64,000 nt of DNA from NCBI RefSeq assembly GCF_000008185.1, contig NC_002967.9, positions 2,294,001-2,358,000 on the forward strand. The letters are read 5' to 3'. The position numbers and the translations under genes are program-made. Within the stretch, counting starts at the first letter, position 1; every line of letters starts with the position of its first letter. Source of the stretch: Treponema denticola ATCC 35405 (GTDB lineage Bacteria > Spirochaetota > Spirochaetia > Treponematales > Treponemataceae). Below, in pieces: positions 8,124 through 12,369 of this stretch. The notes below the pieces were generated by a model that did not search any database, was not told the origin of the DNA, and worked only from the letters and a program-made list of their open reading frames with translations.

Positions 8124-8254
8124 ATTTTCGATAATATATGATAATCAAAAAAAAGTAAATAGGCATTTTAAAAGGCCGTGTTTAATTTAACCGCAAGAGG
8201 TGCAAAGAACGCTAAATATTATCTATAACTTATCTACAACTTATCTTTACCCAT

Positions 8255-8370
8255 AAATCGGGGTTTCCAAAGGGGTATCCCCTTTGGCAGCGCGAGGAAA
8301 AGGGATGGGGTTAAAGGGGAAGGGAAAAACCACCGCTCTGAACGGGGGGTTGTCCCTTCCCCTTTTAGAG
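8255..8370 (+). repeat. Dispersed intergenic repeat, copy B, fused to nuclease remnant
   Basis: Contains the CCAAAGGGG/CCCCTTTGG hairpin, GGCAGCGCGAGG, a purine-rich block and ACCACCGCTCTGAACGGGG. The end is abutted to the C-terminal part of an Rpn-type gene, exactly as in the copy near 54.7 kb. Confidence 0.7.
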
Positions 8371-8694
8371 GTTATAATAAATGCAGAGGCCTTTAAAGAC
8401 ACTGAAAACAAAGAATTAAAGGAATTTTTAGAATATCTTAAAACCGGCAAAACAAAGAGTGAATTTACAAGGAGGATAGAAGAAATGATACAAACAGTAA
8501 AACAAAATGAACAAGCAAGACAAGAATATAGATTAATGTCAACCTTTGAGATGGATGCTAGGTATAAGGGTTTTTCAGAAGGGACTTATAATAATAAATG
8601 CGAAACCGCAAAACTTATGAAGCGAAAAAACTTTGATATCGCTTTAATTAAAGAAATAACCGGACTTCCCGAATCGGAGATTGAGGAACTGTAA
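8371..8694 (+). pseudogene. C-terminal remnant of an Rpn-family (PD-(D/E)XK) nuclease/transposase
   Basis: The open frame runs from repeat DNA into a ~107-residue tail: VIINAEAFKDTENKELKEF, then EFTRRIEEMIQTVKQNEQARQEY, RLMSTFEMDARYKGFSEGTY and ITGLPESEIEEL. This is the C-terminal region of the Rpn/PDDEXK family transposases that are numerous in treponemes. The N-terminal catalytic domain is absent, so it should be inactive. A sister remnant at 54492-55109 has the same junction with the same repeat. Confidence 0.75.
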
Positions 8695-8704
8695 ATTAGG
8701 GGAT

Positions 8705-8728
8705 GTATAGCCGGCGGAGCTTCAAGGC
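8705..8728 (+). repeat. Single unit of the 24-bp GTACAGCC repeat
   Basis: One diverged copy (GTATAGCCGGCGGAGCTTC...) right after the nuclease remnant, as in the tandem array at 55120. Confidence 0.7.
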
Positions 8729-8798
8729 TAAGGCATTTTTTCGGATAAAAGATTTCTTGACCTCGAAACTTCGTTGGTTGTTAGCCTCCCCTATGACC

Positions 8799-8895
8799 GA
8801 TGAAAAATGTACATCCAAAGTACATTTTTCATCTTCGAGTGTTTTTGCTTACGCAAAAAACTCGTACAGCTTATACAGGCGGACATCCTGTCCGC
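8799..8895. repeat. Three consecutive hairpins in a gene-free stretch
   Basis: 8799-8833 is a perfect 14-bp inverted repeat (GATGAAAAATGTAC) with a 7-nt loop. 8836-8864 pairs CGAGTgTTTTTGC with GCAAAAAACTCG. 8879-8895 pairs GCGGACA with TGTCCGC over a 3-nt loop. The first stem is nearly the same as the hairpin at 60041-60074. The remainder of 8729-9131 shows no gene. Confidence 0.75.
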
Positions 8896-9131
8896 TTTGA
8901 TAACCAAAATTCCGCTTAGTGCATCCGCCCCTAAGAACCCCCTTGTTTTTCCAAAAATTTATTCAGATTATTTTCACTTTTAGCTGAAATAAATTCAATA
9001 GATTTTAATTTTTTAAATTCAAAATGAACTGTTCTAAAAGAAAGGATGATAATACAAAGAAGGGGAAGTACTAAAGGATGCTAAAGTCGCGGTTTGAGCT
9101 TCTTAAATTGGGAATTTAGCGGTTATGATAA

Positions 9132-10118
9132 TCAAGTTAAAAGGTATTTGTTACAGTAAGCCCTACAACGGCTTATTGCAATATGGGCAAATACGGGAGT
9201 AATGTGTAAAGCAAATTCTTCCTCGGTCCAGTAAGCTATTTTAAATTTATGAACATAATCTTTTATTTTTTTCTTTAATCGTTTTTTCTTTTTTTGTGAA
9301 AGATAAATACCTTGCGGTTTTACTAAAAACCCCAAAAAAGGGATACCGTTTTTTACCATACCTATAATTTCTTCTTTTAATGTTAAGTCTAGCTCACAGC
9401 TTAAAAAGTTTTTTGCTTTTTTTTGTATAAGTTTTATATCTTTAAGATTATCGGAAAAAAGTAACACATCATCCATATAGCGTATATATCCTCTTACATT
9501 CATCTTTTCTTTTGCATAATGATCAAAAAAACTTAGATAAAAGTTTGCAAAATATTGACTGGTTAAATTGCCGATTGGTACCCCCCATCCTTCCGTCACA
9601 GAGTAAGAAGCTATCAGTTTATTAAATAAATGCAGCAAGGCTTTATCCTTAAACTTACAGGTTAACAATAAGCTAAGTTTGCTGTGCGGGATGGAGTCAA
9701 AGTATTTTTTCATATCCAGCTTTAAAAAATATTTAAAACGGCGTGAAAAATATAGGGCTCGCAATAAAGCAGCTTGTGTTCCTTTATTTTTTCGGCAGGC
9801 ATAGCTGTCATAAATCTGGAATTTTTCAAAAACAGATTCAGTGATATTTATAATTGCATGATGAAGCACCCGTTCATTAAACGGAGCTGCACAGATAATT
9901 CTTTCTTTGGGGTCGTATATTTTGAAGAACCGATAACTGCCGAGTAAGACGGTTTGATTAATAAGATAGTTTTGTAATGTTTTTAAGTTCGTATAAAGAT
10001 TTTTTTCATATAAAAGAACATCCGGCTTTAACCTCTTACCACGGGAAGCATTATAAAAAGCGGCGATAAGATTATTCCATTCGGTTATCTTGTGATATAG
10101 ATTGCCTTTTCTTTTCAT
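9132..10118 (-). CDS. DGR reverse transcriptase
   Basis: 328 residues from the ATG at 10118. Reverse-transcriptase motifs are in order: KLDMKKYFDSI (motif 3 with catalytic Asp), VPIGNLTSQ (~179, the DGR-type motif 4), YMDD (~213) and FLGF (motif 7). There is no maturase/X or HNH domain, so it is not a group II intron RT. Known DGR RTs make cDNA from the template repeat RNA with errors at adenines. The longest frame could start at 10226, but that would overlap the HRDC gene by 155 nt; ATG 10118 leaves a 47-nt overlap and fits the family N-terminus. Last gene of the tvpA-TR-HRDC-RT cassette. Confidence 0.93.
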   Translation of the reverse strand: MKRKGNLYHKITEWNNLIAAFYNASRGKRLKPDVLLYEKNLYTNLKTLQNYLINQTVLLGSYRFFKIYDPKERIICAAPFNERVLHHAIINITESVFEKFQIYDSYACRKNKGTQAALLRALYFSRRFKYFLKLDMKKYFDSIPHSKLSLLLTCKFKDKALLHLFNKLIASYSVTEGWGVPIGNLTSQYFANFYLSFFDHYAKEKMNVRGYIRYMDDVLLFSDNLKDIKLIQKKAKNFLSCELDLTLKEEIIGMVKNGIPFLGFLVKPQGIYLSQKKKKRLKKKIKDYVHKFKIAYWTEEEFALHITPVFAHIAISRCRAYCNKYLLT

Positions 10119-10554
10119 AGTTATGCACCGCTTGTAAAAACGCTTCGCCGAATTTTTCACATTTTCCCTGTCCGATTCCTTCAATTTTAGATAATTCGGA
10201 TATGCTTTTAGGTTTTTCGACTGCAATTTGAGAAAGTTGAGCGTTGTTTAATACCGCATAAATCGGTATACCTGCTTGTTCTGCAAGTTTTTTGCGTTCA
10301 TCTCGTAGATAGGGAAAAAAAGCAAACTCTTCAGGCTTTAAGATATCTTTATAATCGATCGATGATTTTTCTTTATCAGCTGCAGAAATAGGGGAATCAA
10401 GGTATTCTACAAGTATGGAATAAAAACTGTTTTCCCCTGAATTAACGAATTCTTTTGTATGAGTGATAATTTTATGGGAACGCAAAAAAATATTCATTTC
10501 ATCTATGGTTTTTAAATAGTTAGATATTGGAATAACAAATAATTTAAACTGCAT
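10072..10554 (-). CDS. DGR accessory protein with HRDC domain
   Basis: 160 residues. Residues ~1-65 have no recognised fold. Residues ~70-150 form an HRDC domain (FFPYLRDERKKLAEQAGIPIY, then SISELSKIEGIGQGKCEKFG), the nucleic-acid-binding module of RecQ helicases and RNase D. It sits between TR and RT, where many DGRs encode Avd; HRDC-containing accessory genes are a known alternative. It probably binds RT or the TR RNA during cDNA synthesis (inference). GGGAG lies just before the ATG. A 9-bp inverted repeat (10571-10579 / 10619-10627) lies in its leader. Confidence 0.88.
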   Translation of the reverse strand: MQFKLFVIPISNYLKTIDEMNIFLRSHKIITHTKEFVNSGENSFYSILVEYLDSPISAADKEKSSIDYKDILKPEEFAFFPYLRDERKKLAEQAGIPIYAVLNNAQLSQIAVEKPKSISELSKIEGIGQGKCEKFGEAFLQAVHNYEKKRQSISQDNRME

Positions 10555-10666
10555 ATCTCCCTCAAAAAAACTCTCCTTAAGCTTTCCTAATTCTTTTATT
10601 TAAGATACGGTACTTACATAAGGAGAGCACTCTTTATTTGTACTTACTGTACACGATATGGATGGT

Positions 10667-10683
10667 TCACACAATTTGTGTGA
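10667..10683. repeat. Perfect hairpin just past the 3' end of TR
   Basis: TCACACAATTTGTGTGA is an 8-bp perfect inverted repeat with a 1-nt centre. In the coding orientation it starts about 10 nt after the aligned TR/VR block. The TGTGTGA half also occurs beside VR at 11012-11018. Confidence 0.75.
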
Positions 10684-10692
10684 GCTCAAGGG

Positions 10693-10826
10693 CCGACAAG
10701 CCAAGCGGAAGCCAAGATTGTTGTTCCTGTTGTCAGGACTGTTGTTATTCCGTTTGCCTACAGTGCAGTTGTTCGCGTTGTTGTTCCAGCTGCCGCCGCG
10801 TTTAACACGGTTAGAGCCTGACGCGG
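10693..10826 (-). other. DGR template repeat (TR)
   Basis: 134 bp align gap-free with VR at 11027-11160 (constant offset 334). Read on the minus strand in the VR frame it contains 13 asparagine codons (AAC/AAT), including two NNN runs, the arrangement that lets adenine mutagenesis sample many residues. It is non-coding here and must be transcribed leftwards to serve as template. Beyond its 3' side the homology to VR continues with a 1-nt indel and two mismatches, which marks IMH* versus IMH. Confidence 0.95.
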
Positions 10827-10853
10827 CACCTTATACGGTCCATACCGTTTTTT

Positions 10854-10885
10854 AGCCAAAAAATTTTCGAGCCGCTAAAGCGGCT
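10854..10885 (-). terminator. Putative terminator between the variable gene and TR
   Basis: On the minus strand the palindrome AGCCGCTTTAGCGGCT (7-bp arms, 2-nt loop) is followed within 6 nt by TTTTTT. It would end the variable lipoprotein transcript before TR, or attenuate read-through into TR-HRDC-RT. Confidence 0.5.
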
Positions 10886-10933
10886 GACATAGTGCAGGTT
10901 AATCATTATTTTCAAAAATTTACTGCACCACAC

Positions 10934-11017
10934 CACACATTTTGCCTGTTCGGTTTCACCGCTTCGGGCGGCTTCCGCTGCGCCCTGCGCTGCTCAACCT
11001 CTCCGGCAAAATGTGTG
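10934..11017. repeat. Inverted repeat beside VR
   Basis: Perfect 13-bp arms CACACATTTTGCC (10934-10946) and GGCAAAATGTGTG (11005-11017), 58 nt apart, directly after the stop codon of the variable gene in its reading direction. In other DGRs a hairpin or cruciform just past VR is needed for efficient retrohoming; this is the obvious candidate here. Confidence 0.75.
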
Positions 11018-11020
11018 AAC

Positions 11021-12010
11021 TTAAGGCCGGCAAGCCAGGCGGAAGCCAAGATCGCTGCACCTGACGCCAGGACTGATGTTGACCCGTTCGCCTACAGCGC
11101 AGTAGTCCGCGCTGCCGGCCCAGCTGCCGCCGCGTAAAACACGGCCAGAGCCTGACGCGGGGCCAGGATAGTCTTGAGGGAAAGAGTCCCCGGTATGGAT
11201 ATCGGCACGCCAATCCCAGCACCATTCCGCTACATTTCCCGCAATATCATAAAGACCATACCAATTAGGTTTTTTCTTCTTTACCTCATGGGTTTTTGAT
11301 CCGCTGTTTGAACCGTACCAAGCATAGTTTTTAAGTTCAGCCTCGGTATTTGTTCCTGACCATTTATCATCAGTTCCTCCCTTAGCTGCCCATTCCCATT
11401 CCGCCTCCGTTGGAAGTCTAAAGCCCTTTTTATTTATATCTAGCTCTGCCTTATCCCAATCTGCATTATTACTGTCAGGAATTTGATCAAAGCTAAGAGC
11501 AGCAAAATCAACGGGGTTTCCTCCAACATTTACCGTATAGCAGGGTTCAAGATTTAGTTTTATACTGAGTTTATTACAAAAAGCTATTGCTTGATACCAG
11601 TTTACATTTTCTACAGGACGCTTTCCCTGTGTTTCGCCTACGGCAGGGCTTCCATTAAAATGGCTCGGATTATTGCCCATCACTGCCTGCCACAGCTCCT
11701 GCGTTACTTCTGTCTCCCCTATAAGATAGGCACTTAAACTTACGGTATGCGGCTGGTTAATAGAGTAATCATTATGTCCCAACTGGGCATTCACGGCAGC
11801 TATTCCTTTCATGGTAAATTCGACTGAACCTACAGTATATGTCTTATCAACAGGAGTATTAGGAGTTACTTCAGAAGATTCACCTCCGCCGGATTTTCCC
11901 TGACCTGTAGGACAACCGGTCAATAAGACTCCCGCAGCCAACAACAATGCAGTAATAGATATTGCCCGATTTAAGACCTTAGTCTTCAGTTTGGAATTAG
12001 TGTTTTTCAT
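11021..12010 (-). CDS. tvpA: DGR variable surface lipoprotein, FGE-sulfatase/C-type-lectin fold (TvpA-like)
   Basis: 329 residues. A lipoprotein signal with lipobox VLLTGC ends at about residue 33, followed by a Gly/Ser linker. Residues ~48-329 are a formylglycine-generating-enzyme-like domain: EVTQELWQAVMG, VNWYQAIAFCNKLS, FRLPTEAEWEWAA, YDIAGNVAEWCWD, RVLRGGSW and LGFRLACRP at the very end. The last ~45 residues (from ~284) are the variable repeat. Such DGR targets use the C-type-lectin fold to display 10-20 variable residues for ligand binding, and a T. denticola homologue called TvpA has been characterised. AGGAGGG precedes the ATG by 8-9 nt. It probably sits on the outer surface and binds an unknown ligand. 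Confidence 0.93.
   Translation of the reverse strand: MKNTNSKLKTKVLNRAISITALLLAAGVLLTGCPTGQGKSGGGESSEVTPNTPVDKTYTVGSVEFTMKGIAAVNAQLGHNDYSINQPHTVSLSAYLIGETEVTQELWQAVMGNNPSHFNGSPAVGETQGKRPVENVNWYQAIAFCNKLSIKLNLEPCYTVNVGGNPVDFAALSFDQIPDSNNADWDKAELDINKKGFRLPTEAEWEWAAKGGTDDKWSGTNTEAELKNYAWYGSNSGSKTHEVKKKKPNWYGLYDIAGNVAEWCWDWRADIHTGDSFPQDYPGPASGSGRVLRGGSWAGSADYCAVGERVNISPGVRCSDLGFRLACRP
11027..11160 (-). other. DGR variable repeat (VR)
   Basis: The 3' end of the variable lipoprotein gene. Against TR, 26 positions differ by my hand alignment. 23 of these are adenines in the TR coding strand, changed to G, T or C; the others are T-to-C, two of them close to the IMH end. At protein level TR asparagines become G, A, G, S, D, Y, V, I, V, C, S and D, and one is unchanged. 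The conserved GC-rich tail encoding LGFRLACR serves as IMH. Confidence 0.95.
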
Positions 12011-12148
12011 AGCTAATCCCTCCTTACAAAATAATTTAATTTATACAAAAAACTGCAAAGCCGAATAAATTCAACCCTGCGGTTTTTAGATTGAGAAAAA
12101 TAAGTATTAACAGCTTTAATTAGAGATATTTTACTTAATAGAGAAAAT

Positions 12149-12157
12149 GGGGGGGGG
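12149..12157. repeat. G9 homopolymer tract upstream of the variable lipoprotein gene
   Basis: Nine consecutive G on the plus strand (C9 on the coding strand), about 140 bp before the tvpA ATG. On the minus strand a weak -35-like TTTACC overlaps the tract and TATTAA follows about 15 nt later, so tract length could set promoter spacing. The rest of 12011-12369 is AT-rich with no gene. Confidence 0.6.
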
Positions 12158-12308
12158 TAAACCTAGGCTAACATTTTTCAAGTCATTTTTATTCCGTAAA
12201 TATCGGGAAAGAGAAAATTGTAAATCGACAAAAAATTTCGTTACCATGGCTTAATTATAGCATAAAATATAGAAAAACTCACGTATCAATTATCAAATTT
12301 ACAATAGG

Positions 12309-12340
12309 AAACCTCTAAAAACTTCAATTTTTAGAGGTTT
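12309..12340 (-). terminator. Terminator after the chemotaxis receptor gene
   Basis: AAACCTCTAAAAA and TTTTTAGAGGTTT form a perfect 13-bp stem with a 6-nt loop, 30 bp beyond the receptor stop codon. The T-rich arm itself serves as the U tract on either strand. Confidence 0.7.
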
Positions 12341-12369
12341 CATTTGATTTTAATTCGAGATGCTTCCTT

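Follow-up and report, generated by a model that had tools for sequence, protein, structure and literature searches.

A chromosomal HRDC-type retroelement of Treponema denticola ATCC 35405, its probable rewriting of several lipoprotein genes, and candidate noncoding structures beside its template and targets

Introduction

Treponema denticola is an oral spirochaete linked to periodontitis, and a structure paper by Le Coq and Ghosh from 2011 is said to deal with its TvpA diversity-generating retroelement (DGR).

The DGR of T. denticola ATCC 35405 (or the near-identical ATCC 35404) was published with the TR at 2304692-2304822, TDE2269 at 2305021-2306010, an HRDC gene at 2304072-2304554 and a reverse transcriptase (RT) gene at 2303132-2304118, the latter two overlapping by 47 nt (PMC4891356). 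The same paper listed seven target genes round the chromosome, reported several TR types and proposed an IMH, with no mention of hairpins. In the DGR of Bordetella phage BPP-1, homing requires a hairpin or cruciform directly after the VR (PMC3240598), and the spacer in the position equivalent to that between TR and HRDC gene in T. denticola recruits the RT-Avd complex (PMC12875486). No description of a post-VR hairpin or a structured spacer in Treponema was found in the literature covered, Le Coq and Ghosh 2011 being outside this scope, and no paper on the Rfam family TD-2 was found in the literature search.

Here, we analyzed a window of 64,000 nt (C1:2294001-2358000) from the genome of T. 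denticola ATCC 35405, a single contig of 2,843,201 bp, in which a preliminary description had reported a complete DGR. Positions are given within the window unless preceded by C1.

Results

All parts of the element were located on the minus strand and were arranged, in agreement with the preliminary description, 5' to 3' as tvpA with its VR, TR, HRDC gene and RT gene. The variable lipoprotein gene tvpA (TDE2269, 11021..12010) is an ORF of 329 aa with the lipobox LLTGC and an FGE-type C-type-lectin fold (Pfam FGE-sulfatase, 4.9e-39), and residues 36-329 of its product matched PDB 2Y3C with E 2e-206. The VR (11026..11156) forms the 3' end of tvpA and ends at the stop codon, while the TR is located at 10692..10822; without gaps, the repeat extended over 10691-10826 and 11025-11160 (136 nt, 81% identical, spacing 334). 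The HRDC-domain accessory gene (10072..10554, 160 aa) was confirmed by Pfam HRDC (3.7e-19) and is followed by the RT gene (9132..10118, 328 aa from ATG), which matched RVT_1 (2.5e-17) and the PHROG reverse transcriptase (2e-81), with 8ub7 as the best solved relative (1.2e-45). The two genes overlap by 47 nt, and an alternative 364-aa TTG start at 10226 was not needed. By eye, both the DGR-type motif 4 (PIGNLTSQ) and YMDD were intact and no stop codon interrupted the gene, so that no inactivating RT mutation was seen; with RT, HRDC gene, TR and spacer all intact, the earlier judgement that this copy looks intact was upheld. The locus combines a DGR-type RT, a TR/VR pair at a coding 3' end, differences concentrated on template adenines and an HRDC accessory gene. 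PADLOC matches were generic RT models and DpdF HRDC domains, not a defence system, and a defence role was rejected.

The coordinates of TR, tvpA, HRDC gene and RT gene were equal to those published (PMC4891356) and the protein matched PDB 2Y3C; therefore, the element is the known TvpA DGR of ATCC 35405 itself. The preliminary description was right that the class is not new and that the locus matches the TvpA type, which is here narrowed to the published element at its published coordinates. On the same identity of coordinates, we rejected the idea of a novel DGR related to that of T. denticola.

Compared with the TR, the tvpA VR was changed at 23/39 template adenines and 3/92 non-adenine sites, which bears out the expectation that differences would be biased to template adenines. 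The other six published VRs showed the same bias, with Fisher p from 4.5e-7 to 7e-11, and in each of the seven 3-7 of ~92 non-adenine sites were changed; changes favoured adenines in every VR of the genome. The 3' end of the tvpA VR (11026..11051, span approximate) is IMH-like and differs from its TR counterpart at TR positions 119 and 127; at one or both of these positions, all nine VRs of the genome departed from the TR.

Fourfold synonymous sites were then compared between VRs and gene bodies. At non-adenine VR positions of the seven targets, 320/351 (91%) of these sites were identical, compared with 1011/1592 (63%) in the gene bodies, and for tvpA versus the six others the identity was 33-54% in the body and 82-100% in the VR. 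Because synonymous non-adenine identity is so much higher in the VRs than in the bodies, the VRs are, as read from these sites, overwritten from TRs. Pairwise sharing of adenine-site states between VRs showed no excess over column composition (p 0.78), as expected of independent rewriting; such homogenisation together with unshared adenine states fits rewriting from TRs, not plain duplication. Non-adenine mismatches were considered as decay and this was mostly rejected, since 27 of 38 carried the base of another TR at the same site (TRs of the congeners G002, G004 and G007, plus G071 and G065; this figure is approximate because the alignment is poor towards the 3' ends of two of these TRs). 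The mismatches thus seem to be marks of other TR lineages, several of which seem to have written VRs, consistent with the several TR types reported (PMC4891356). Several VRs, among them those of TDE2515 and TDE1056 with A84/C85, bear the marks of TRs that differ from the present one, and part of the VR diversity may predate the present TR. We dropped the idea that T76 dates recent homing events, because VRs with T76 also have A84/C85, which are absent from the present TR.

A whole-genome search with the TR recovered all seven published targets plus two genes that also end in a VR-like sequence and that are missing from the published list for this strain (PMC4891356). The gene at C1:1000555-1001700 encodes 381 aa with a lipobox, and its VR contains a 15-nt in-frame insertion and is changed at 18/39 adenine and 12/90 other sites; that at C1:853132-854157 encodes 341 aa, with 23/39 adenine and 19/92 other sites changed. 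Both encode FGE-fold proteins. Their larger numbers of non-adenine changes (12 and 19) suggest that rewriting of the two genes has apparently ceased. The targets are all members of a single family of FGE-fold lipoproteins, and some have downstream sequence in common. The preliminary description had the element aiming at a surface receptor: this agrees with the adjacent tvpA, a putative receptor judged by its lipobox and C-type-lectin fold, but instead of one, at least seven targets spread round the chromosome were found. Downstream of the remote target TDE2515, a 33-nt copy of the sequence immediately upstream of the TR was observed (C1:2540797-2540829, in the ATCC 35405 genome, G000), which suggests that TDE2515 arose from a target-spacer-TR cassette. 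In congener G004, an FGE-fold gene ending GFRLACRP abuts a TD-2 copy (L104, G004:C1:1603431); no VR was found there by DNA search, and the gene is probably a former target.

The spacer between TR and HRDC gene (10555..10690) folded better than shuffled sequences (z -3.2) and was conserved in G007 and in G071, a member of another genus (cmsearch E 6e-36 and 5e-29, respectively, both spacers being in the training set of the model). One compensatory pair change was observed by eye. By analogy with BPP-1, the spacer is a candidate RT-recruiting RNA. A widely conserved spacer RNA was unsupported beyond G000, G007 and G071, as matches at more distant HRDC-type loci were weak (best E 0.9).

A candidate hairpin or cruciform follows the tvpA VR at 10934..11017 (minus strand). 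It is an inverted repeat with a 13-bp outer stem (10934-10946 with 11005-11017) that encloses a GC hairpin with a GGAA loop (10966-10985), the latter seen by eye. The same outer stem was present in G002, G004 and G071, and at C1:1001697 it was kept through four compensatory double changes. Perfect stems of at least 12 bp within 200 nt after the VR were found at 18/22 targets and in none of the shuffles, compared with downstream stems of that length at 6/45 control ORFs, one of which is tvpA itself (Fisher p 6e-8); the targets are paralogous, and their stem and TD-2 counts are accordingly non-independent. At many other targets, TD-2 (RF03162) occupies the post-VR place in antisense, 0-22 nt past the stop codon and in two fixed registers of 0-1 or 21-22 nt. 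Measured against the BPP-1 type (inverted repeat 4-34 nt after the VR, GC-rich stem of 7-10 bp, 4-nt loop 5'GRNA), most targets had stems of 12-15 bp starting 8-30 nt after the VR, TD-2 stems were AT-rich with TCCG-like loops, and the GC hairpin with GGAA loop of the core copy was located ~40 nt after the VR, just beyond the 4-34 nt range. Within the window, a further TD-2 (78 bits) was detected at 8795-8895 (minus strand), ~100 nt past the ORF 8284-8694.

For the site comparison, seven congeneric genomes (one genome per species) were used, and a full-length RT match was found in none of the seven. Therefore the DGR is, on this genomic comparison, dispensable. G007 kept an element that has lost most of the RT and a portion of the HRDC gene, G006 contained a different partial RT match, and G002, G004 and G007 carried TR-like copies with nearly all adenines retained. 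The site itself (8176-12369), located between an ABC transporter gene and a chemotaxis gene, was variable among congeners: G001 was empty, missing 8177..12360 and joining 8176 to 12361 with ~11-20 nt between; G002 had a tvpA orthologue with another VR and no TR, HRDC or RT gene; and G004 had ~7.5 kb of other genes. In the wider family, RT matches at E 1e-40 or better occurred in 27/195 genomes, an HRDC ORF accompanied the RT at 17/19 related loci examined, and G071 had the full architecture of target-VR, TR, HRDC and RT. In G065, an insertion of ~260 nt (L101, 6286-6551), which by eye includes a TD-2-like sequence, interrupts the RT gene, and an apparent TD-2-like insertion was also seen by eye in the TR spacer of this locus. 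The ORF at 8284-8694 (plus strand) is a truncated gene whose product matched the C-terminal part of a transposase of the PD-(D/E)XK nuclease family (PDDEXK_2); in G002 the transposase gene is present at full length (L073:4510-5286). This fragment was found repeatedly 3' of DGR targets, and L076 and L078 shared the same junction, window 8793 to 10812-10814.

Discussion

We consider it highly probable (about 95%) that the locus is a chromosomal HRDC-type DGR which rewrites tvpA and at least six remote FGE-fold lipoprotein genes. Transcription would yield the TR RNA, whose structured 3' spacer may recruit the RT as in BPP-1, and the RT would place random bases opposite the adenines when it copies the TR. 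The resulting cDNA would then replace the 3' ends of tvpA and the at least six remote genes, the VRs being chosen by the IMH-like 3' sequence and probably also by the hairpin just past the VR. The outcome would be a repertoire of surface-exposed C-type-lectin domains with differing binding faces. Intact parts, adenine-specific difference, VR overwriting, multiple targets and conserved noncoding structures are all read from the sequence itself; from them we infer that the element is probably active at present, as the preliminary description had also judged, and HRDC, spacer and hairpin would have the roles given here, with ligand binding as the putative purpose.

The targets could instead be ordinary paralogues, their common 3' ends derived from duplication or gene conversion among themselves and not from the TR. 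Their membership in one lipoprotein family and the downstream sequence held in common by some of them would agree with this. However, the differences fall on TR adenines, which in our view already refutes it, the synonymous homogenisation is restricted to the VR with adenine sites spared, and adenine states are unshared between VR pairs, and we regard this origin as very improbable. An intact but dormant element is harder to dismiss: the VRs would be frozen products of earlier rounds, with no retrohoming today, as the marks of other TR lineages in VRs and the congeners in which TRs or VRs persist although no full-length RT match was found would allow. The intactness of RT, HRDC gene, TR and spacer argues against dormancy, as does the closeness of the seven published VRs to the TR when set against the 12 and 19 changes in the decayed copies, so that dormancy appears rather unlikely.

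For the post-VR structures, a possible but less likely reading is that homing at Treponema DGR targets depends on a DNA hairpin module downstream of the VR, which takes either of two interchangeable shapes, a stem-loop of 12-13 bp or TD-2 in fixed antisense register. It stands at about even odds that hairpins and TD-2 are transcription terminators or mobile repeats that ride on duplicated targets and have no homing role. TD-2 is present at ~61 copies per genome, most of them away from VRs, a TD-2-like sequence lies inside the RT gene of G065, and stems of at least 12 bp also follow 5/44 other window ORFs of at least 200 aa. Against this stand the excess of stems after VRs over control ORFs and the outer-stem pairing preserved through double changes; in addition, at 24 sampled TD-2 loci, every ORF of at least 100 aa that runs antisense to TD-2 and stops no more than 25 nt from its 3' end was a target, in one of the two fixed registers, and at the G002 tvpA orthologue TD-2 takes the place of the other hairpin type, which is found in ATCC 35405. 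If the homing module is real, TD-2, catalogued as a small RNA, would be a recognition structure for retrohoming at DGR target sites.

In principle, at least seven surface lipoproteins could have their binding faces rewritten from one template. The synonymous-site test separates overwriting from duplication, the comparison of congeners shows the frequency with which targets outlast the RT, and the TR spacer and the post-VR hairpin or TD-2 open the homing mechanism of HRDC-type DGRs to tests outside phage BPP-1. The window holds no new element; what makes it of interest is the overwriting test across several targets, together with the noncoding structures, and not the existence of the element.

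Compared with the published DGR of ATCC 35405 (PMC4891356), there is no difference in the element itself, which has the same TR, tvpA, HRDC and RT coordinates, 47-nt overlap, seven targets and PDB 2Y3C; the two extra genes with decayed VRs, the post-VR hairpins and TD-2, the structured spacer and the empty site go beyond that description, and the post-VR hairpin, often formed by TD-2, is possibly a new detail. The HRDC-linked DGR of G071 (Treponemataceae, another genus) has the same order of parts, an RT 73% and a TR 79% identical, and the post-VR stem and spacer structure in common with T. denticola, whereas its target gene body differs (~33% identical to TvpA). With the BPP-1 DGR (PMC3240598, PMC12875486), the element shares TR/VR, DGR-type RT, adenine mutagenesis, IMH-like ends, a folded spacer after the TR and a candidate hairpin after the VR. 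Unlike BPP-1, it is chromosomal, has an HRDC gene instead of avd and many targets, which are FGE-fold lipoproteins and not Mtd, and its hairpin stems are longer (12-15 bp), with loops that at most targets differ from the 5'GRNA seen in phage DGRs.
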